A stretch of DNA of 64,000 nt from contig JAKLJL010000013.1 of assembly GCA_023151185.1 (NCBI GenBank), positions 1-64,000 of the forward strand. The letters are read 5' to 3'. Position 1 is the stretch's first letter; the number at the start of each line of letters is the position of its first letter. Both the position numbers and the translations under genes were made by a program. Positions 49,442 through 62,707 of the stretch are shown in pieces. The DNA comes from Bacteroidota bacterium (GTDB lineage Bacteria > Bacteroidota > JABWAT01). The notes beneath the pieces were generated by a model, which did not search any database, was not told the DNA's origin, and saw only the letters and a list, made by a program, of their open reading frames with translations.

Positions 49442-50068
49442 TTATTTTTTAAATCTGATCCTTTTAAGTCTCACATTCTCAACATAATTCTTATCTGCCA
49501 AATTAAGTGTATCCTGTGTTTTTATCTCCTGAAAGCAGTTATTGTTAATTTCAAAGGTCCAGATTGTTGGATAATCCATTTTGTTGTTTTTTGTAAATCC
49601 AAGAATATAAACGAAATCAGTTTTAACCCAATAAGCTTCTTCTGGTCTGCAATCAGTTCCGCCAAGTAATAGCCTGATCCTTCTTTTTCCTTTTATATCA
49701 ATCAAGGCAGTTTCAGTATCCACTTCGCTGCCATTTGAAGTTAATTGTCCAAGGGAGTCCTTCTCAAGCATTAGTGAATACCTGTCTAAATCAATGAAAT
49801 AAGAAGAATCAGGTGAAAAGACAAAAAAATCAGTAAATAGATTACTTGTGTCGGATAAATACTCATATTCAAATGAAATTGCGTTTCTCCCGGTCTTTGG
49901 TAGTGAATCACGAAACGATTCCAATTTTAAGTCATAATAATTTAACCATCTCTCAAGTCTGTTTTTATTTGACTGATTCTCCTGCCTGTCAGAAAATTCA
50001 GTTTTAATATCCCGATTCCCACATGATATCAGGAGAGTAATCAAGCTAACTGTCAGTATGAATCTCAT
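49442..50068 (-). CDS. Lipoprotein of unknown function (cassette 3)
   Basis: MRFILTVSLITLLISCGN lipobox; lies between attC-like element 2 and half-element at 49433. Confidence 0.6.
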   Translation of the reverse strand: MRFILTVSLITLLISCGNRDIKTEFSDRQENQSNKNRLERWLNYYDLKLESFRDSLPKTGRNAISFEYEYLSDTSNLFTDFFVFSPDSSYFIDLDRYSLMLEKDSLGQLTSNGSEVDTETALIDIKGKRRIRLLLGGTDCRPEEAYWVKTDFVYILGFTKNNKMDYPTIWTFEINNNCFQEIKTQDTLNLADKNYVENVRLKRIRFKK

Positions 50069-50090: not shown

Positions 50091-50225
50091 CCATAACGTT
50101 TTGCGGCTTGGCGTAGTGGCGGATTTTTAGCACAAAAGTTCAATCGGAGAACTGCACTTGAACCTACCATAAAACTGTCATACGAAGCACTGCACCCGCC
50201 ATTACGCCAAACCGCTGTTGGTGGC
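50091..50225 (-). repeat. attC-like hairpin element, copy 2 (3' of HAD/PRTase/DprA cassette)
   Basis: Top strand CCATAACGTTTTGCGGCTTGGCGTAGTGGCGG...CCGCCATTACGCCAAACCGCTGTTGGTGGC; arms GCGGCTTGGCGTAGTGGCGG/CCGCCATTACGCCAAACCGC pair with few mismatches; homologous to 52692-52827. Confidence 0.75.
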
Positions 50226-50275
50226 TGGTGTTCTTGTTGTCCGCAATTTATTTTAGTTATCAATTTCTGTTTTTG

Positions 50276-51283
50276 TTAGTCAAATAAATTTCCTTGCTGA
50301 AAAGTTGTCGAGCTTTTAACTGTCGGCTGTTTGTTCAATATTTTCGAAACTGTTTCGTAAATATTTTCCTGTGTTATTATTGTGATGTCCCTTTGTTCTT
50401 TGATTAAATCTCTGTTTAAGTCAAACATTGGGTTGTTTTCGTCAATATGTTCGTCATACATTACTGCCCTCGGAATACCATAATCTTTTGCGAAACCCAT
50501 AGCTAAACGAGCACCACTGTCAAGTTTTTGTCCAAACATTTTCCATCGTTCAGCCGAATTTTGAGCATAGCTTGCAGCCAAAACAATTGTGTCGCAGAAC
50601 AACGCTTGTAATCGGTCTCTTTCTTTGTAACGACTACTTAGTTCCATTTGGCTTTTAAAATCAGTTCCATATTCTGTAACAAGCAAACCGCCTTCTTCTA
50701 CAATTTGGAACGCTAAACCTTTATTTCTTACTGGCATTATACTACTGAGTGGACTTGGCAAAACTGCAACGGTTTTACCATTAGAATCTAATGCTTGTTG
50801 ATGTGATATGCTGTCGCAACCAAAAGCGAGACCACTCACTATGGTAGCACCTTTCTTTACAAATTCAGCAACTATTTTTCTTTCTCTTTCTTCTATATCG
50901 CCTTCTGGGTTTAAAAGTCCAATTACAGTGATGTTTATATTGTCAATGCTCAATAAGTCGATGTTGCCTTTGTAATAAAGAAAAATAGGTCTTTCACTTT
51001 CTTTCACATTGCCACGATGTTTAGGGAAATCTTTATCTCCTAATGCTACAATCCCATCACAAAGTTCATTGTCAAACTTTTCTAAAAGCTTATTTTCAAA
51101 ATTATTTTTAAGACGTTCAAATTCATCTTCGTTTGTTTGCTCTCCTTTGATTGTTTTGTTAAGCAATGAAACAATTGTTTCCACACTTTCGTTGCCCTTC
51201 AGATTTTTCACAATCCAAGCATTACCAATTCCTTTGTAAGATTTGGTTGTTAAAATATTTAATGCGTTATCGGTATACTTCAT
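50276..51283 (-). CDS. DprA/Smf-like (SLOG superfamily) protein
   Basis: GATIVSGLAFGCDSISHQQALDSNGKTVAVLPSPLSSIMPVRNKGLAFQIVEEGGLLVTEYG resembles the DprA Rossmann core; start MKYTDNALN at 51283 (track start 51385 would overlap the PRTase). Confidence 0.72.
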   Translation of the reverse strand: MKYTDNALNILTTKSYKGIGNAWIVKNLKGNESVETIVSLLNKTIKGEQTNEDEFERLKNNFENKLLEKFDNELCDGIVALGDKDFPKHRGNVKESERPIFLYYKGNIDLLSIDNINITVIGLLNPEGDIEERERKIVAEFVKKGATIVSGLAFGCDSISHQQALDSNGKTVAVLPSPLSSIMPVRNKGLAFQIVEEGGLLVTEYGTDFKSQMELSSRYKERDRLQALFCDTIVLAASYAQNSAERWKMFGQKLDSGARLAMGFAKDYGIPRAVMYDEHIDENNPMFDLNRDLIKEQRDITIITQENIYETVSKILNKQPTVKSSTTFQQGNLFD

Positions 51284-51293
51284 TGTCGCTAAA

Positions 51294-52049
51294 TTATTGA
51301 TTTCGTGATACAGTTTTTCCAACGGAGTAAAAAGTAACAGAATTGGCTCCCTTGTCCAATAGTGCTTGAATTGCATCTTCATCAATGTTTACGCTTTTCG
51401 TGTATAAATCATCAATGAGTAAAATGTTTTTGCCATTTACCTGTCCTGAAATTGTGCAGGTGTCTTTTGTGATTCCTGGGTATGGCAAATTTCCGTCACC
51501 ACCTTCGCCATTTCTGTCTAAATGCGTTGTTCTTGTATTTGTGTGTCGCACAATGTAATTAGTTCCGTTTTCAAAATTTGGCAATTGGTCAACCACATTA
51601 CTAATTACCATTCTAAAAAGTAATTGGTTGGCTCTATAATGACCTTCCGCTTTTGAACGTGGAACAACACAAACGGTAAAATTGTTCTTTCTTGTCTGTC
51701 TGAGGATTTCTGGTAAATCTTGCCTTAATATTGCTGAAAGCTGTTGCTGGACTTTAGGTAGTCTTTCAGGAAATGGGTCAACATCATTCTTAAAAGTCCA
51801 AATCAAATTTTCAATACTATTGGGGATTTGCCAAGAACTACCACTATTATAATCAGCGTGAAAAAATGCATTTGTATTCTGTTTGAGAAATGTCCCAATT
51901 AATCTGATTTCATCAGAGTCATTTACGAAAAATCCTGTGTTGGCAACTCTTCCTTTTCGTTTGTCACCAATAAGTCTTCGAAAGTTAGCTTCTCTTTCAT
52001 TCGGTATTTTATACCATTGTTCTTCTGATAAGATTGTGAAATTTTCCAT
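51294..52049 (-). CDS. Phosphoribosyltransferase-like protein
   Basis: PRPP-loop-like GKNILLIDDLYTKSVNIDEDAIQALLDKGANSVTFYSVGKT. Confidence 0.72.
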   Translation of the reverse strand: MENFTILSEEQWYKIPNEREANFRRLIGDKRKGRVANTGFFVNDSDEIRLIGTFLKQNTNAFFHADYNSGSSWQIPNSIENLIWTFKNDVDPFPERLPKVQQQLSAILRQDLPEILRQTRKNNFTVCVVPRSKAEGHYRANQLLFRMVISNVVDQLPNFENGTNYIVRHTNTRTTHLDRNGEGGDGNLPYPGITKDTCTISGQVNGKNILLIDDLYTKSVNIDEDAIQALLDKGANSVTFYSVGKTVSRNQ

Positions 52050-52052
52050 TTC

Positions 52053-52649
52053 TTATAGATTTGTTGGGTTGATAATTGTTATCCCTGCTTTATGTGCATC
52101 CGCAATTTCGCTTTCTTCATTTTCAAAAGCGATAATCAAATTGGGCGGAACGCCCAATTTTAAAATAGCATTTTGAAATTTGTTTATTTTTTGTCCATTG
52201 TCGCCAAACTCTCTGTAGAAAATATTGCTGAATTTGTCGTCAAGTCCGAAATGTATTAATGTTTTCATTGCTCTGTCTTTTCGGCAATTTGTTACTAAAA
52301 CAGTTTTGTTTGTTTTTGAATACTTAAAAAGTATTTCTGCGGTTTCTACATTTAGTTTTGTTTCGTTTAGAAAGTCGTTGTAGTATTCTTCCTTTTCTTG
52401 GATTATTCTCTCGTATTCTTTCTCCGTCAAGTTTGGAACAGCAGTTTTAAGACTACTACGGTTAAAGCGTTTGTCAGAATTGTATGTTAGGTCGTGGTTT
52501 GATTTTGTTACGGAAAGTATTGCCTTCTTGTATGAAAGAAAGTTTGCAAGGTTTGTATCTACCAATGTTCCGTCCATATCGAAGAATAAAACTGTGTCTG
52601 CCGTGATTTTACTGTCAAGGTCTTGAATTAATTTGTCTTTTTGCTCCAT
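52053..52649 (-). CDS. HAD superfamily hydrolase
   Basis: VLFFDMDGTLVDTNLA (motif I), KTVLVTNCRK (motif II), IIAFENEESEIADAHKAGI (motif IV). Confidence 0.87.
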   Translation of the reverse strand: MEQKDKLIQDLDSKITADTVLFFDMDGTLVDTNLANFLSYKKAILSVTKSNHDLTYNSDKRFNRSSLKTAVPNLTEKEYERIIQEKEEYYNDFLNETKLNVETAEILFKYSKTNKTVLVTNCRKDRAMKTLIHFGLDDKFSNIFYREFGDNGQKINKFQNAILKLGVPPNLIIAFENEESEIADAHKAGITIINPTNL

Positions 52650-52691
52650 TCTTCTGTTCCGTTTTTCGTTTATGTGGTCGTCTTTACACTT

Positions 52692-52827
52692 GCCACCAAC
52701 GTTTTGCGGCTTGGCGAAGGTGGCGATTTTACCACTGAAATTTCATACGAAGCACACACTTCAAATTTACGAAAAACTGTCATACGGAGCACTGAACCGC
52801 CACTTTTGCCAAACCGCTGTTATCAGC
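52692..52827 (-). repeat. attC-like hairpin element, copy 1 (3' of metal-resistance cassette)
   Basis: Top strand GCCACCAACGTTTTGCGGCTTGGCGAAGGTGGCG...CGCCACTTTTGCCAAACCGCTGTTATCAGC; shares GTTTTGCGGCTTGGCG, ACTGTCATACG(A/G)AGCACTG and GCCAAACCGCTGTT with copy 2. Confidence 0.75.
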
Positions 52828-53029: not shown

Positions 53030-54934
53030 TCAATGTCCGCTTACAATTTTATTTTCAAACTTCATCAAATTCAAACTTGTCAAAATTACTATAAGTGTTA
53101 CTCCAACGTATGCTGCAATAGCGAAAACCAAATTGCTGTAACCAATAAAGGCAAGCGTTATGAAAATGAGTTTAACTGCTATTGCTCCAATGGTGTTGAA
53201 TTTTATTCTGCGTAAAGTTTTTTGACTTAACCGAATGAGAAACGGAATGAGTGAAAGTTTATCGTTCATTAATGCAATGTTTGCGGTTTCTATGGCGGTG
53301 TCGCTTCCTGCTGCTCCCATTGCTATGCCTACGGTGCTTTGTGCAAGGGCTGGTGCATCGTTTATGCCATCGCCTACCATTGCTACAAATTTATATTGCT
53401 GCAATAGTTCTTTGATTTTTTCGGCTTTGTTTTCGGGTAGCATATTGCCGAATATTTTTTTGATGCCTACTTGCTGTGCTACATAGTTTGCTGCTTTTTC
53501 GCTGTCGCCTGTAAGCATTACAGGTTCTATGTTCATAGCTTCTATTTCTTTTAACGCTGCTGCACTGTCGGGTTTTATTTCGTCCATCAATCCAATAATT
53601 CCTGCAACTCCATTGCCAAAACTTACTACTACACTAGTTTTGCCTTGGGCTGAAAGTTGCTCTACAATTTTTAGTGCTTCATTGTCTATGGTTTGAGTTT
53701 CTTGTATAAAATCTAATTTGCCTACATAAATTGTTTCGTCCTCACACACCAAACATTTTGCAGTTGCCCCTTTGCCCATAATGCTTTTGAAACCTTCGGT
53801 TTTGTGTGGTTCAAAACCTTCCTTCTTGCTTGCATCAACTATGGCTTGTGCCAATGGGTGTTCGGAAAATATTTCTGCTCCTGCGGTGCAAGCCAATAGT
53901 TCTTCACGGCTTGTTCCGTTCAATGGGAAAATATCCGACACGATTGGATTTCCAAAAGTGATGGTTCGTGTTTTGTCTAATGCAATTGCTTTTATTGATG
54001 CCAATGCTTCAATATATTTTCCACCTTTAACTAATGCTCCTTTTACTGATGCGTTGCCTATGGCTGCATAAATTGCAACGGGTGTAGAGATGACTAATGC
54101 ACAAGGACAAGCAATAACTAAAAGTGTAATTGCCTGTTGTAACCAATGGTTAAAATCTAATTGCATTGCAAATACGGGAATTACAAAAACTAAAATTGCC
54201 ATTGCAATAATGGACGGTGTGTAATACTTTGAAAATTGCTGAATGAATTTTTGAGTTTCACTTTTGTTGCCTTGTGCTTCAAATGTTAGGCGAATGATTT
54301 TTGAGAAAGTTGTATCAACAGAAAGTTTGGTTGTTTCCATTTCTATGAAACCATTTTTGTTTAGCGTTCCTGCAAATAAATTATCGCCTATGCGTTTGTC
54401 TTTAGCAATTGGTTCGCCTGTGATGGCAGCTTCATCAACCATTGTTTCGCCTGAAATAATTTTGCCGTCAAGCGGTATCATTTCACCTGCTTTGACTTGA
54501 ATGATTGTGCCGACTGCAATTTTATCAATAGCCACATTTGCATTTTCAGTTTTTACAAAAGCGGTCTTGGGTGCTTTGCTTACTAATTCATCTAATGCAG
54601 ATTTTGAATTTTCAATTCCTATATCTTCTAATCGTTCGCCTAAAACATAAAGCACTATTACAACTGCTGCTTCTGGATATTCGCCCAAATAAAATGCTCC
54701 GATAACGGCAATAGTCATTAGTAAATTGATGCTGCTGAATTTGAGTTTGATGATTGCTTTTACTCCGTTCCATAAAACATTGTAGCCAATTCCTAAAATA
54801 AAAATGGCGAAAAAAAAAGGTGCATAAGGCATTGGTATGTGTATGCCGATGATAGAAAGAATTTCTAACGCAACTACTATTGTGATTGCTGAAAGAAGAA
54901 AAAGGAATTTTTTATCGTTGATTGGTAACTTCAT
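53030..54934 (-). CDS. Heavy-metal translocating P1B-type ATPase (Zn/Cd/Pb type)
   Basis: ACPCALVISTPVAIYAAIG (CPC motif), ALDKTRTITFG (DKT), HPLAQAIV, MVGDGINDAPALAQ. Confidence 0.93.
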   Translation of the reverse strand: MKLPINDKKFLFLLSAITIVVALEILSIIGIHIPMPYAPFFFAIFILGIGYNVLWNGVKAIIKLKFSSINLLMTIAVIGAFYLGEYPEAAVVIVLYVLGERLEDIGIENSKSALDELVSKAPKTAFVKTENANVAIDKIAVGTIIQVKAGEMIPLDGKIISGETMVDEAAITGEPIAKDKRIGDNLFAGTLNKNGFIEMETTKLSVDTTFSKIIRLTFEAQGNKSETQKFIQQFSKYYTPSIIAMAILVFVIPVFAMQLDFNHWLQQAITLLVIACPCALVISTPVAIYAAIGNASVKGALVKGGKYIEALASIKAIALDKTRTITFGNPIVSDIFPLNGTSREELLACTAGAEIFSEHPLAQAIVDASKKEGFEPHKTEGFKSIMGKGATAKCLVCEDETIYVGKLDFIQETQTIDNEALKIVEQLSAQGKTSVVVSFGNGVAGIIGLMDEIKPDSAAALKEIEAMNIEPVMLTGDSEKAANYVAQQVGIKKIFGNMLPENKAEKIKELLQQYKFVAMVGDGINDAPALAQSTVGIAMGAAGSDTAIETANIALMNDKLSLIPFLIRLSQKTLRRIKFNTIGAIAVKLIFITLAFIGYSNLVFAIAAYVGVTLIVILTSLNLMKFENKIVSGH

Positions 54935-54957
54935 TGTATGATTATTTTAAAATTTAA

Positions 54958-56232
54958 TTAATGTTCGTGTGCTTCACCTTTGTTGTTCATTTTAGCCAAA
55001 ATAAAAAATGCACCGTTCACAACAACTTTACTGTTTGCTGGAATATCTTTTAGCAAAGTAATTTCGCTGTAACCCACATCGGTAGTGCCTTTTCGGATGG
55101 GGATTTTTTCAAAGGTTGTTCCTTCTTCGTTGTGTTCGGGTTTTTCCTTTTCGCTGTGTTGGTGTCCGCCTTCATCGTGCTTGTGTTCGGTAGTTTCTTT
55201 TTCCGAATGATGTTCTTCTTCCTTATGAGCATCGGTAACAATAAAAATGTAGTCCTGCCCTTCGTGGTTTACAATGGCGTTGGTGGGCACTGCATCAACG
55301 GTAGCGTTTTCTAAACTTACCAATGCCGTAATGCTCATGCCGTCAATCAATCCCTGCTTGTTTCCTTTCACCATTGCATGAACGGCAACGGCTTTTGTGT
55401 TTTGCTCAAAGGTGTTACTGATGGCGAAAACATCTGCATCATATTCTTTGCCCGGATTGTTGGTGAGCGTAAAATGTATTGTTTGACCTTCTTTGAGTTT
55501 ATGCAAATCTTTTTCATACACATACAAATCCAAATGCAGTTGGCTGTTGTCCACTATTTCGGCAATAGGATTATTGGCATCTACAAAGCTTCCAATGTTT
55601 ACCATTACGTTGCTGATAGTGCCGTTTATAGGGCTTGTAATATTTATAACTGACTGGATATTTTCACTTGAAAGAGAATTTGTATTGATGCCGACAAGTT
55701 CTAATTGCTTTTGCAAACTTGCTTTACGGGCTTTCAATGTTTTTAGTTCTGCATCGGCTGACTGCAAGTTTTTCAATGCACCTGCATTGCCTTGTTGCAA
55801 TTCTTTTTGTCGGGTAAATTCTAATTGTGCTAACTCTGCCTTTGAAGAAACACTTAAAAATTCTTCTTGCATTGTGATGAAAGAATTATTTGAAATGGTG
55901 GCAATTACTTGTCCTTTGCTTACCGTATTTCCCGTTTGCACCAGAATAGATTTGATAACTCCACCCAATGATGCTGTAGCGTTTGCCCTGTTTTGATTAG
56001 GCACTTTCAAAAGTCCGTTGGCTTTGAGTGAAGCTGTGAGTTGCTTTTTCTCAATACTTCCCAACTCAATTTTTATGGATTTCATTTGCTCGGCTGTAAG
56101 CATAGCCGTGTTGGAGTTTTCGTGTTCATCGTGATGCTCGGTTTCTTCTCCGTGCGTTTCGGTTTTATTGCTGTTGCAGGATGCAAATACTATTGATGTT
56201 GCAAGGGCTGCTATAAAGATTATATTTTTCAT
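54958..56232 (-). CDS. RND efflux periplasmic adaptor (CusB/CzcB-like)
   Basis: Lipobox SIVFASCNSN, His-rich segments, GGVIKSILVQTGNTVSKGQVIATI, INITSPINGTISNVMVNIGSFVDANNPIAEI. Confidence 0.9.
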   Translation of the reverse strand: MKNIIFIAALATSIVFASCNSNKTETHGEETEHHDEHENSNTAMLTAEQMKSIKIELGSIEKKQLTASLKANGLLKVPNQNRANATASLGGVIKSILVQTGNTVSKGQVIATISNNSFITMQEEFLSVSSKAELAQLEFTRQKELQQGNAGALKNLQSADAELKTLKARKASLQKQLELVGINTNSLSSENIQSVINITSPINGTISNVMVNIGSFVDANNPIAEIVDNSQLHLDLYVYEKDLHKLKEGQTIHFTLTNNPGKEYDADVFAISNTFEQNTKAVAVHAMVKGNKQGLIDGMSITALVSLENATVDAVPTNAIVNHEGQDYIFIVTDAHKEEEHHSEKETTEHKHDEGGHQHSEKEKPEHNEEGTTFEKIPIRKGTTDVGYSEITLLKDIPANSKVVVNGAFFILAKMNNKGEAHEH

Positions 56233-56244
56233 TTTTGTGAAATT

Positions 56245-59200
56245 TTATTTGTTGATTAAGAAATTAATGTTGATGACTGACTGATTGAGTTGGTTAACAC
56301 TTTGCAGATAATTCAACTGCACATCGGTAGCGGTTTGCAATGCCTGTAAGTATTCTATGTAGCCAATGTCGCCACTTTTGAAACCAAGCGTTGCGGTGCT
56401 GATAATTATTTCGGCATTAGGCAAGGCAGTTGATTGGTAGAAATTGTATTGCGACAAATTCTGGTTGTATTGCTGAAAAGCATTTTTCAGTTGGTTTTGT
56501 AAAATGAGTTTTCCGTTGTCGGCTTCTGCTTGCAATGCCTGTTGCTTGTAGTTCAGCGATTTTATTCTTGATGCGTTGCTGAAAAAAGTAAGCGGAACAC
56601 TGATACCGACACTAACACCCTGAAAGCGTTTGGTGCCGTCAAAATTCACTTCCGTTCCATTTACATTTTGAAACCCGATTAAGGACTGATTGAAATAACC
56701 CACACTGAAATTGGGAAACGCAGAGGCGGTTTCAACTTTCTTGTTTTGCTCTGCAATTACTGCTTGCTGATACAACACTTTCAAAGAAGGATTATTTGCA
56801 ACAAGCGTGGTGTCAAACGAATTGCTTAACACAAGCGGTTGCAAATTTTCATTTACGCTAATTGTAAAATCTTCGCTTGTATTCATCAGTGTTTTCAGCG
56901 AATTGTAAGCGGTTGCAAACTCGGTTTCGTTTTGTTTGAGTAAAAGCAAAAGCTGTCCCCGTTTGGTTTCGGCTGTGGTTTTTTCCAACAGATTTGTTTC
57001 ACCTGTTTTGTAACGCAAAGCGGCAGCACTTACAAAATCCTTATACAAACTGTCTAACGATTGCAGTTGTTTTTTTGCAGTTTGCAAATACTGTAACTGA
57101 TAAAACCAGTATTGCACCTGTGCTTTTATTTCGTTGGCTGTGGCTTGCTGTTGCAATTCACTGTTTTGCAATTCGGCTTTATACAAACCTGATTTTGCTG
57201 TGTAATAAGTAGGGAAGGGAATACTTTGTGAAATCTGAAACGCATTATCATTATTGATGGTATTGAATTGTCCGTATTGAAAATTCACATCTGTTTTAGG
57301 CAATTCAAATACCGATTTTTTTAACGTAGCGGAAGATTGCACATTGAGTTGTTGGGATTGCATTTCTAAATTATTTTTCAGTGCGGTGCTTATTGCATCA
57401 TCAACCGAAATGGTTTTGGTTGATGGCGTTTGAGCATTTGCCATATTGAATGAAAGCAATGCAAATACTAAAACTACAGTTGTAGAAATACTTTTTTTCG
57501 CTTTTCCAATTTTAGAAAACAAAACATACAATAAAGGCAATACAAACAGTGTCAAGAATGTGGCTGTAAGCAATCCACCTATCACCACGGTTGCCAATGG
57601 TTTTTGTACTTCTGCTCCTGCACTGTGCGAAAGTGCCATTGGCAAAAATCCTAATGATGCAACAGTGGCGGTCATTAGCACTGGTCGCAAACGAATTTTT
57701 GTTCCTTCAATTACCCTTTGTATTACATCACTCACTCCGTCTTTTTCTAATTGGTTGAATGTGCTGACTAATACAATTCCATTTAGCACCGCCACACCAA
57801 ACAAGGCAATGAAACCAACACCTGCTGAAATACTAAATGGCATATCACGAATGAGTAACGCAAACACACCGCCTATTGCACTCATGGGAATGGCTGCGTA
57901 AATAAGAGTGGCTTGTTTTACTGAAGTGAAAGTGAAGTAGAGCAACATAAAAATGAGAGCCAATGCAACAGGCACGGCTATCATCAACCGTGCGGATGCG
58001 GCTTGCAGGTTTTCAAATGTGCCTCCGTAGGTGTAATAATATCCTTCTGGAAGTTTAACTTTCGTGTCTAACTGTTCCTGAATTTCTTTTACCACACTGG
58101 CTACATCTCTGCCATTTACATTAAAGCCGACTACAATTCTCCTCTTGCCATCTTCACGGCTTATTTGTGAAGGTCCCAATTCCATTTTAATTTCTGCCAC
58201 TTGTGATAAAGGAATTTGTGTTCCGTTGGCAAGAGGAATATAGAAGTGGTCTAAATCGTCAATGTCGCTTCGGTGCAAACTGTCTAACCGCACCACCAAA
58301 TCAAACCGTCTTTCATTTTCAAAAACGACGCCTGCCGTTCCACCTGCAAAGGCAGTGCTTACAATGTGATTGATGTCTTCAATGTTCAATCCGTAGTTTG
58401 CAATTTGTGTCCTGTTGTATGTGATTACAATTTGCGGAAGCCCTGCAACCCTTTCTACACTCGGTTCGGTAGCACCTTCCACACTTTGAACAATTGCATT
58501 TACTTTATTGGCATAGTTCAAAAGAGTATCCATGTCCTCACCAAATATTTTTACTGCAACATCTTGCCTTATGCCAGTCATGAGTTCATTGAAACGCATT
58601 TGAATGGGTTGGTTTTTTTCAAAGAACACACCGGGAATAACTTCCAGTTTCTCCATGATTTCATCTGCAAGTTCCTCATAGGAAATATCCCGTTTCCATT
58701 CATCGGGCTGTTTCAGAATTACCATCATGTCGGTGGCTTCGGGAGGCATAGGGTCGGTTGGCACTTCGGCACTTCCTGTTTTACCAACTACCATCTTCAC
58801 CTCGTCAAACTGTTTGATGATTCTTGATGCCTGCATACTTGTTTCAATGCTTTGAGAAAGCGATGTGCCTTGCGGCAATATGCAGTGAAAAGCAAAATCG
58901 CCTTCGGCAAGAACGGGAATAAATTCGCCTCCCAATCGTGTGAACATAAAAATACTTACCGCAAAAGCGAACACCGTTGCACCAACCACAATTCTTTTTG
59001 CGTGAATGGCTTTTTGTAAAAGCGGTGTGTAAATGCCTTGGAAAAAATCCATTATCCTGTCACTGATATTTCTTTTGTGCGAAGTTTTCTTGCTCAGAAA
59101 AACTGAAGAAATCATCGGGATGTAAGTGAGTGAAAGAAGAAACGCACCCAGAATGGCAAACGAAACAGTTTGAGCCATTGGTCCAAACATTTTTCCTTCA

Positions 59201-60615
59201 ATGCCAATCAATGAAAGAATTGGGAGGTAAACGATGAGAATAATTATTTGTCCGAATGCAGCACTGCTCATCATTCGTTTTGCACTTTGAAAAACTGTTT
59301 CGTCTAATTGCTTCTGCGACAAAACATTTGTTGATTTACCTGCATGTTCATAAGCAACTCGGTGAAAAATCGCTTCCACAATAATTACCGCACCGTCCAC
59401 AATCAAACCAAAATCAATTGCTCCTAAACTCATCAAGTTTGCACTCACACCAAACACATTCATCATTCCCAATGCAAACAGCATTGATAAAGGAATTGCA
59501 CTTGCCACAATTAAACCTGCACGAAGGTTTCCTAAAAACAGAACCAAAACGAAAATCACAATCAATGCACCCTCAATCAAATTTTTCTCTACCGTTCCAA
59601 TGGCACGATTCACTAAATCGGTTCTGTCCAAGTAAGGTTCAATCACTACATCATCAGGCAAAGATTTTTGAATGGTTGTCATTTTCGCTTTTATGCTTTT
59701 CACTACTTCGGCACTGTTGTATCCTTTCAACATCATCACCACTCCACCTACTGCATCCACTTCACCATTGTAAGTCAAAGCACCATAGCGGACAGCGCTT
59801 CCAAAATCCACATCGGCTACATCTTTAATCAAAATAGGTATTCCATTAGGACTGTTTTTTACCACAATGTTTTTCACATCATCTATTGAACTCACTAAAC
59901 CAACTCCACGAATGAAATAGGCGTTGGGTTTTTTGTCAATGTATGCACCGCCTGTGTTTTCGTTGTTCATTTCCAAAGCCGAAAAGATTTCGGGAATGGA
60001 AATGTTCATTGCTAAAAGTTTGTCGGGGTTTACTGCAACTTCATATTGTTTGAGTTTGCCACCAAAAGAATTTACCTCTGCAATTCCTGCAGTGCCGTAA
60101 AGTTGTCGGGCAACAATCCAGTCCTGCATGGTTCTCAATTCCATTGCAGAATATTTTTGTTCGCTTCCTTCTTTCGGGTGAATGATGTATTGATAAACTT
60201 CCCCCAAGCCCGTGCTTACTGGTGCTAATTCGGGTTGACCAACTCCTTTAGGGATTTTTTCTTCGGCTTCTTTTAATTTTTCGTTGATGAGTTGCCTTGC
60301 GAAATACACATCCACTTTGTCTTTGAACACAACGGTAACAACCGAAAGTCCAAATCGTGAAATGCTTCGCAACTCTTCCAAATCGGGAAGGTTGGCAATG
60401 CTTTGTTCTATTGGGTAAGTTACCAACTGCTCCACCTCTTGCCCTGCAAGCGTTGGGCAACGTGTTATGATTTGCACTTGGTTGTTGGTGATGTCGGGAA
60501 GAGCATCAATAGGCAGTTTGCTTGCACTCCACACTCCCCAAATAATGAGTGCAAAGGTCATCAAGGCAATGATGAATTTGTTTTTTATGCTGAACGCAAT
60601 TATTTTTTCTAACAT
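56245..60615 (-). CDS. CusA/CzcA-type RND pump fused to C-terminal TolC/CusC-type outer-membrane factor
   Basis: FALIIWGVWSASKLPIDALPDITNNQVQI...GAIDFGLIVDGAVIIVEAIF; after ~residue 1040 a signal-like FALLSFNMANAQTPS then OEP repeats (ISVDDAISTALKNNLEMQSQ..., NFSVGYFNQS). Confidence 0.92.
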   Translation of the reverse strand: MLEKIIAFSIKNKFIIALMTFALIIWGVWSASKLPIDALPDITNNQVQIITRCPTLAGQEVEQLVTYPIEQSIANLPDLEELRSISRFGLSVVTVVFKDKVDVYFARQLINEKLKEAEEKIPKGVGQPELAPVSTGLGEVYQYIIHPKEGSEQKYSAMELRTMQDWIVARQLYGTAGIAEVNSFGGKLKQYEVAVNPDKLLAMNISIPEIFSALEMNNENTGGAYIDKKPNAYFIRGVGLVSSIDDVKNIVVKNSPNGIPILIKDVADVDFGSAVRYGALTYNGEVDAVGGVVMMLKGYNSAEVVKSIKAKMTTIQKSLPDDVVIEPYLDRTDLVNRAIGTVEKNLIEGALIVIFVLVLFLGNLRAGLIVASAIPLSMLFALGMMNVFGVSANLMSLGAIDFGLIVDGAVIIVEAIFHRVAYEHAGKSTNVLSQKQLDETVFQSAKRMMSSAAFGQIIILIVYLPILSLIGIEGKMFGPMAQTVSFAILGAFLLSLTYIPMISSVFLSKKTSHKRNISDRIMDFFQGIYTPLLQKAIHAKRIVVGATVFAFAVSIFMFTRLGGEFIPVLAEGDFAFHCILPQGTSLSQSIETSMQASRIIKQFDEVKMVVGKTGSAEVPTDPMPPEATDMMVILKQPDEWKRDISYEELADEIMEKLEVIPGVFFEKNQPIQMRFNELMTGIRQDVAVKIFGEDMDTLLNYANKVNAIVQSVEGATEPSVERVAGLPQIVITYNRTQIANYGLNIEDINHIVSTAFAGGTAGVVFENERRFDLVVRLDSLHRSDIDDLDHFYIPLANGTQIPLSQVAEIKMELGPSQISREDGKRRIVVGFNVNGRDVASVVKEIQEQLDTKVKLPEGYYYTYGGTFENLQAASARLMIAVPVALALIFMLLYFTFTSVKQATLIYAAIPMSAIGGVFALLIRDMPFSISAGVGFIALFGVAVLNGIVLVSTFNQLEKDGVSDVIQRVIEGTKIRLRPVLMTATVASLGFLPMALSHSAGAEVQKPLATVVIGGLLTATFLTLFVLPLLYVLFSKIGKAKKSISTTVVLVFALLSFNMANAQTPSTKTISVDDAISTALKNNLEMQSQQLNVQSSATLKKSVFELPKTDVNFQYGQFNTINNDNAFQISQSIPFPTYYTAKSGLYKAELQNSELQQQATANEIKAQVQYWFYQLQYLQTAKKQLQSLDSLYKDFVSAAALRYKTGETNLLEKTTAETKRGQLLLLLKQNETEFATAYNSLKTLMNTSEDFTISVNENLQPLVLSNSFDTTLVANNPSLKVLYQQAVIAEQNKKVETASAFPNFSVGYFNQSLIGFQNVNGTEVNFDGTKRFQGVSVGISVPLTFFSNASRIKSLNYKQQALQAEADNGKLILQNQLKNAFQQYNQNLSQYNFYQSTALPNAEIIISTATLGFKSGDIGYIEYLQALQTATDVQLNYLQSVNQLNQSVININFLINK

Positions 60616-61759: not shown

Positions 61760-62707
61760 TCACTCTTTTTCTTCATAATAATAGGAATAGTCAATTCCTT
61801 TCATAAACATTTCACGGTCATTTATTTTGTCAGTAAGCGCAGAACGCAAAAGAGCCTTTAGAATACTGCTTTCTGCCGGACTTAGCTTCATTGCATTCAT
61901 ATAGTCTCTTTTACTTATTTTACTCCAGTCAACGCATTTTTTAAGGTGTAATTTTAACATCAAATCCAACCATATCCGTGTACTTCTGCCATTACCTTCC
62001 ATAAAAGGATGGGCAATATTCATTTCAACATATTTAGTAACAATTTCGTCGAATGAATTTTCCGGCATTGCATCCACCCGCTTTAATGTATCACCTAAAA
62101 AGCGTGAAGCAGCAAATTGAAATCCTCCTTTTGAAATATTCTTTTGCCTGATTTGCCCTGCAAAATCATACAATCCTCCAAACAAATAGGCATGAATCTG
62201 CTGTAAGCCTTTGGCTGTCCCAACTTCAATGTGTTCAATAAACGAACTTTCAAATAAGGCATACGCTTTTGTTTTACTTTTTCCGTCTATACTCTCATCA
62301 CCATAAGTAAACCAGTCAATAAACCGGTTTGCTTTTTTTCCGGGAAATTCTTTACCCAATGCAATTATGCCGTTATAATCCAACATATCAGCAAACCGTC
62401 TTTTTCCGTCGGGAGCAGGAAACTTCAACTGGGTAGCAGCACTAACCACTTGGCTGTTTTCCTTCTTTAACTTTGCTTTAAGGTACTTCCAATAATTGCG
62501 GGTTTTTGCATAGTCATCCTGGTCGGTTAGCACTGCAACAATATCCAGCACTGAAAACCACCATTTTGCATTGTCTTCATCCCAGATAGCCCGTACTTCG
62601 CGGTCGTCAAAAAAACGGATGGATATTTTTGTGTTACTCATTTTTTCAAATTCAGTCTGTTCTGATCGTATTACTTCAAAATACTGATAATTTTTAACTT
62701 GAACCAA
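61760..62707 (-). CDS. BRO-N/DinD-like domain fused to Fic/DOC domain protein
   Basis: N-term [33 protein letters not shown]; Fic motif [16 protein letters not shown]-term [14 protein letters not shown]. Start may be internal [10 protein letters not shown] (~62644). Confidence 0.83.

Follow-up and report, generated by a model that had tools for sequence, protein, structure and literature searches.

We find that three adjacent genes in a Bacteroidota genome, encoding a HAD phosphatase, a phosphoribosyltransferase (PRTase), and a DprA-like protein, quite probably form a three-gene variant of the ShosTA toxin–antitoxin system carried on an integron cassette, with the PRTase as the toxin, the DprA-like protein as an antitoxin located at the replication clamp, and the HAD protein working in series. 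This reading draws on directly observed features, namely the gene order and its conservation, the intact active sites, the fold match to ShosT, the enrichment of a C-terminal motif, and the cassette boundaries. In the mechanism we propose, the PRTase toxin would use PRPP, disturbing the purine/PRPP pool and damaging DNA in the way that ShosT reportedly does. The DprA-like antitoxin would sit on the replication clamp via its C-terminal tail and keep the PRTase in check there, a placement we suggest because a tail with a clamp motif replaces the C-terminal end found in housekeeping DprA. Phage takeover of replication would then disturb the clamp-held pair and release the toxin, and the HAD protein would process either the product or the substrate of the PRTase. 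A role in defense, raised in a preliminary description of this DNA, appears to be the best reading because ShosTA is the closest characterized system; for nucleotide signaling as such, also raised there, we find no evidence, the nearest precedent being a PRPP-using toxin restrained by an antitoxin.

The window (the whole 64,000-nucleotide stretch analyzed, part of contig 4 of a draft genome of 3.74 Mb) contains the following features:

52053..52649, minus strand: HAD phosphatase gene, first of the operon (198 aa, helical cap; Pfam HAD_2 E=1.7e-12; AlphaFold2 pLDDT 93.7; invariant catalytic residues)
52566..52580, minus strand: HAD motif I in the sequence, DMDGT (D24-T28; D24, D26, and T28 invariant)
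51294..52049, minus strand: ShosT-like PRTase gene, predicted toxin (251 aa; AlphaFold2 pLDDT 84; PDB matches 8zvd/8zvc/8zvb; hhalign 94.6%)
51399..51413, minus strand: PRPP loop, DDLYT (D213-T217; D213, D214, and T217 invariant in 37 PRTases)
50276..51283, minus strand, ATG at 51283: DprA/ShosA-like gene, predicted antitoxin (335 aa; Pfam DNA_processg_A E=3.8e-32; separate clade)
50282..50296, minus strand: C-terminal QGNLF of the DprA-like protein, a motif of the sliding-clamp-binding type (enriched in the clade)
50098..52700, minus strand: integron gene cassette with the three genes and one attC-like site (identity to loci L011 and L013 stops at AAC|GTT at the readable ends)
50094..50228, minus strand: attC-like site, cassette 3' end (inverted repeat; two related copies in the genome)
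52698..52822, minus strand: attC-like site of the preceding unit, at the cassette 5' boundary (attC-like hairpin)

The three ORFs, their coordinates, and their shared minus strand are as first described, in the order HAD, PRTase, DprA-like with intergenic gaps of 3 and 10 bp, and chance is excluded as the source of this tight spacing, since the same order and spacing are seen again in dozens of loci. The start of the DprA-like gene at ATG 51283 is the same ATG that close relatives have; an alternative frame from TTG 51385 is longer and overlaps the PRTase, and orthologues do not use it.

Conservation of the Triad and Its Enzymes

Protein searches recovered the triad in one further genome from this phylum (locus L004, identities of 43, 58, and 66%) and on the Synechocystis plasmid pSYLB (L010; 35, 46, and 52%), and 47 further loci emerged when the PRTase alignment was run against 85,462 species genomes. 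Their record names include Bacteroidota, Chloroflexota, Spirochaetes, Cloacimonadota, Nitrospinota, Planctomycetota, Proteobacteria, candidate phyla, and others, many of them being metagenome-assembled genomes (MAGs) for which some taxon names may reflect binning errors. The HAD-PRTase-DprA order is kept in pSYLB, in L004, and in most of the 47. A DprA relative lies directly downstream of the PRTase in nearly all loci. Of the 45 loci with space for an upstream HAD relative (pSYLB counted), 37 have one and 8 do not, and in L048 and L055 the HAD forms a single ORF with the PRTase; the PRTase thus often has the HAD as a partner but can do without it. By this neighborhood analysis the three genes are a conserved unit.

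Within the phylum the occurrence is patchy, with a convincing match in 2 of 395 genomes, and neither of the two congeners searched gave one. Genes for YhcG-type nucleases, type I methylases, AbiEii-like AAA proteins, and RhuM stand near related loci, a listing from these loci alone that we do not read as defense-island enrichment. Viral contigs searched with the DprA alignment of this clade yielded nothing and no phage record matched in the PRTase search, so the HAD-PRTase-DprA lineage is not phage-borne in the collections searched. A Porphyromonas MAG carries a tandem duplication of the PRTase-DprA pair (L056, 389-4022) in which the first DprA copy is truncated.

The PRTase matches no Pfam model. 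Among all solved structures, the best matches to its AlphaFold2 model are the ShosT entries 8zvd, 8zvc, and 8zvb, a modest similarity (TM 0.40-0.45 on the query), and hhalign aligns it with phage ShosT at 94.6% probability over the catalytic region, with a common RHT...DD..T pattern. The long divergent N terminus noted earlier holds for the window's closest relatives; in distant orthologues about 40 residues of it are missing. PADLOC labels the window pair ShosT/ShosA. We rejected its profile matches as proof of membership, since both profiles also match housekeeping proteins: in 391 of 395 genomes the ShosT profile picks up other PRTases, probably of the ComF type, and with the ShosA profile the genome's housekeeping DprA scores 212 bits, above the 154 of the DprA in the window. 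The PRTase is frameshifted in L019 and L021 and truncated in L057, with the DprA intact in all three; contig ends and duplications aside, no locus showed the converse, an intact PRTase beside a broken DprA. This pattern, from three loci, agrees weakly with the PRTase being the toxin.

The predicted HAD phosphatase site is intact, as D24, D26, T28, K157, and E176 are invariant in 31 HAD orthologues, and the nearest solved folds to its AlphaFold2 model are of the phosphoglycolate phosphatase/beta-phosphoglucomutase type. The fusion of the two in some relatives makes it most likely that the HAD would work in series with the PRTase, acting either on what the PRTase makes or on what it uses (a phosphoribosyl compound or nucleotide monophosphate). 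We considered and rejected the idea that the HAD descends from the N-terminal domain of ShosT, there being no detectable profile similarity to the P2 ShosT domain (hhalign probability 1%); given this absence, HADs may have been recruited independently as fused domains and as separate genes. The separate gene offers a natural case for studying the HAD activity as a protein of its own.

An Integron Gene Cassette

The window shares 96.6% DNA identity with Flavobacterium stagni over 50094-52701 and none beyond, and a Chitinophagaceae copy (L013) is 97.2% identical and runs to its own contig end. The common block stops at AAC|GTT in the window, in L011 (3' end), and in L013 (5' end). It is because of these shared boundaries, not of attC folding, that we call the unit an integron gene cassette, which bears out the putative mobile cassette of the preliminary description and sharpens it to 50098-52700; this cassette nature is new as far as we found. 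For the attC-like sites, folding is by itself weakly significant (z of -1.8 and -2.5). A different attC-like hairpin precedes the Chitinophagaceae copy, no attC-like site was found before the F. stagni copy, and the genome holds a third attC-like copy 94% identical to that of the window. A full integron integrase is encoded on another contig (TIGR02249, 430 bits against a cut-off of 265; G000:C5:61111-62052), and none adjoins the cassette. As in other integron cassettes with toxin–antitoxin or defense genes, we see an attC-bounded unit and an integrase in the genome; it differs from them in carrying a three-gene ShosTA-like system and in lying outside an integrase-proximal array. The cassette would add a defense-type toxin–antitoxin unit to the Bacteroidota integron repertoire.

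The cassette is part of an island of low GC content (35-43% over about 49.3-63 kb, with about 54% in the surrounding DNA). Directly upstream of it, on the minus strand of the same island, are genes that we named by eye as heavy-metal resistance genes (53030-60615): a P-type ATPase (53030-54934), a CzcB-like protein (54958-56232), and a CzcA-like protein (56245-60615) that seems to be fused with an outer-membrane efflux part. A further minus-strand ORF of the island (61760-62707) looks, by eye, like a RhuM/BRO N terminus linked with a Fic domain and is possibly another toxin or defense gene. Downstream of the attC-like site, a small lipoprotein-like ORF (49442-50068, minus strand) without a clear Pfam or PADLOC match is possibly the next cassette. 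Contig 1 (G000:C1:45000-60000) holds a second, lower-scoring integrase; after it come a set of type I restriction-modification genes and an attC-like site that is 94% identical to the one in the window. No sign of the Ter-type stress modules named in the preliminary description was seen: no TerB, TerC, TerD, or TelA was recognized by eye among the ORFs at 44-64 kb or among the first 25 of the families listed for related neighborhoods.

The DprA-Like Protein and Its C-Terminal Tail

The DprA-like protein had been thought unlikely to be the housekeeping DprA, and it is not. The genome has a separate housekeeping DprA on contig 21 (G000:C21:200753), the DprA-like clade is supported at 100/100, and a tree that unites it with housekeeping DprA is rejected (p-AU 0.004); the analysis separates the two without fixing the clade's exact place among ShosA-like proteins. 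With the triad association conserved and this DprA apart from its housekeeping counterpart, we found neither of the results that had been named in advance as speaking against the proposal. The TVIGLLNP motif singled out from the sequence is real and clade-wide: GLLNP replaces the usual GSR-type loop, and G122, L123, L124, and P126 are invariant or nearly so across 44 orthologues. The protein also lacks the C-terminal end typical of housekeeping DprA.

Its C terminus instead reads QQGNLFD. A Qxx[LIM][FLM] pattern occurs within the last 12 residues of 16 of the 24 clade representatives (clustered at 70%), compared with a mean of 0.53 and a maximum of 4 for shuffled tails, and a third of the representatives (8/24) have no recognizable clamp motif. 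In phage and plasmid DprA proteins adjoining a ShosT-like PRTase, the pentapeptide is present in 8/25 and a penta- or hexapeptide in 12/25 (shuffle mean 0.69), in forms such as QLSLL, QMSLF, QFSLF, QLDLL, and QIQMDI, with QQSLDL also among the tail variants. The motif was found in none of 24 housekeeping DprA proteins, in at most 1 of 23 phage DprA proteins without a clear PRTase partner, and in 1 of 417 other ORFs of the same loci. The motif persists on differing linkers, as expected of a clamp-docking tail. The published beta-clamp motif has a weak C-terminal QLxLF consensus (PMC4549789), and the tail of the DprA-like protein agrees with this type in being conserved and above chance.

These tails suggest that ShosA is probably tethered to the replication clamp. 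We found no report in the searchable literature of a clamp-binding tail on a ShosA/DprA-like antitoxin, and the recurrence of the predicted tail in this clade and in phage ShosA (QLSLL) is apparently new as far as the literature shows. More tentatively, with somewhat less than an even chance of being right in full, we propose that ShosA-type antitoxins of at least two deep lineages are clamp-tethered guards that would dock on DnaN by a QxxLF/QLxLxL tail, keep a PRPP-consuming toxin at the replisome, and let this toxin go when a phage displaces or hijacks the clamp, with the HAD of the window lineage turning over the toxin product. Proposals for how ShosTA detects infection still diverge, naming phage SSB-type proteins, T7 Gp0.7, or DNA-protein intermediates, and a clamp tail, if true, would link antitoxin and replisome directly and provide a specific and cheap way to test sensing.

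The same toxin–antitoxin pair could work with the tail bound to the toxin or to another partner such as RecA or SSB, and with the DprA fold sensing by binding DNA or a nucleotide. An antitoxin has to touch its toxin somehow, as in the physical interaction of RqlI with RqlH (PMC4670107), and so short a tail could be a toxin-binding peptide; we nevertheless consider this unlikely, as QxxLF, QLSLL, QLDLL, QMSLF, QIQMDI, and QQSLDL on different linkers make up the spread expected of clamp-binding motifs. A somewhat better, though still minority, prospect is that the HAD is a second safety device, a detoxifying antitoxin that destroys the toxic PRTase product and stands outside the toxic pathway. 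Phosphatases of this fold do act on small phosphorylated metabolites, and the HAD is sometimes missing, as an accessory might be; yet where it is fused, the fusion is to the PRTase and not to DprA (L048, L055, and phage ShosT), suggesting a shared enzymatic step, and the fused P2 version has no intact motif I.

Readings without a toxin fare worse. HAD and PRTase proteins are common salvage enzymes, and the toxic or antiphage role of this clade is itself a predicted one, so one may picture a metabolic operon in which the PRTase makes a nucleotide, the HAD dephosphorylates it, and the DprA serves as a SLOG-type nucleotide-binding regulator, with no role in defense. The patchy, cassette-borne distribution (2/395 phylum genomes), a defense toxin as the best structural match, and the finding that the broken gene is the PRTase with DprA intact make this improbable. 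We give still less credence to an accessory set for natural transformation or DNA uptake, built on a ComF-like PRTase and DprA: ComF and DprA are competence partners and an H. pylori ComF structure ranks fifth among the PRTase fold matches, but ShosT ranks above it, the unit is a mobile cassette, and the DprA lies outside the housekeeping clade in a genome with a DprA of its own.

Comparison with Known Systems

With housekeeping DprA and ComF the operon has its superfamilies in common, and it differs from them in its separate tree clade, in its other C terminus, and in the operonic association of HAD and PRTase. The PsyrTA/RqlHI systems are closer, pairing a DprA-like antitoxin with a toxic PRTase domain that needs its PRPP site: RqlH toxicity requires that site, and the DprA-like RqlI restrains RqlH (PMC4670107). 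There, however, a RecQ-type helicase carries the PRTase as its C terminus and RqlI bears an HTH at its own C terminus; we found no helicase part in the 251-aa PRTase of the window or in its operon.

Plasmid operons of Sinorhizobium (pHRB800, L105) and Segatella copri (L106) unite the same three families in the order PRTase-DprA-HAD, differing in that the HAD is downstream (L105 3949-4443, L106 3970-4467) and of a shorter type; we know of no published system name for them. In P2-type ShosT proteins (L102, L164-L172), a HAD-like region in which motif I is degenerate (FSIADVV) stands N-terminal to the PRTase, and some other phage ShosT-like proteins keep the HAD motif intact (FDLDNTL in L112, FDLDDTL in L116). 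Since P2 fusion, intact phage fusions, and plasmid PRTase-DprA-HAD operons are all seen, predicted HAD-type domains are joined to this toxin–antitoxin pair in several ways, and we treat the N-terminal HAD fusion as a variant feature and not as one that defines the ShosTA pair.

ShosTA itself is represented by PADLOC entries PDLC03012/02997 and PDB entries 8zvb-d, 9w2p, 9w2q, 8zva, and 9vzo (E. coli, P2-like phage), the E. coli P2-type ShosT of phage 10W being identical to the PDB sequence. The DprA+PRTase pair encoded by a P2-like phage confers protection from T7 and lambda (PMC9122126), and ShosT is described, in the part of PMC12593503 that cites Pu et al. 2025, as a PRTase/pyrophosphatase that upsets the purine pool and causes DNA damage. 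In both ShosTA and the window, a DprA-like gene directly adjoins a PRTase gene on one strand, the PRTase fold (best solved match) retains its PRPP-loop Asp pair, a HAD-like part is linked to the PRTase, and the DprA protein ends in a clamp-like motif, QLSLL in the phage version. The two differ in gene order (ShosA-ShosT versus HAD-PRTase-DprA), in genomic setting (a phage hotspot versus an integron cassette), and in the DprA protein, which in the window belongs to a different clade, is about 25% identical to phage ShosA, and has GLLNP in place of GTRNP. Furthermore, the HAD-like part that is fused to the N terminus of P2-type ShosT and degenerate is here a separate gene with intact catalytic residues, a three-gene variant that would widen the ShosTA family well beyond proteobacterial phages.
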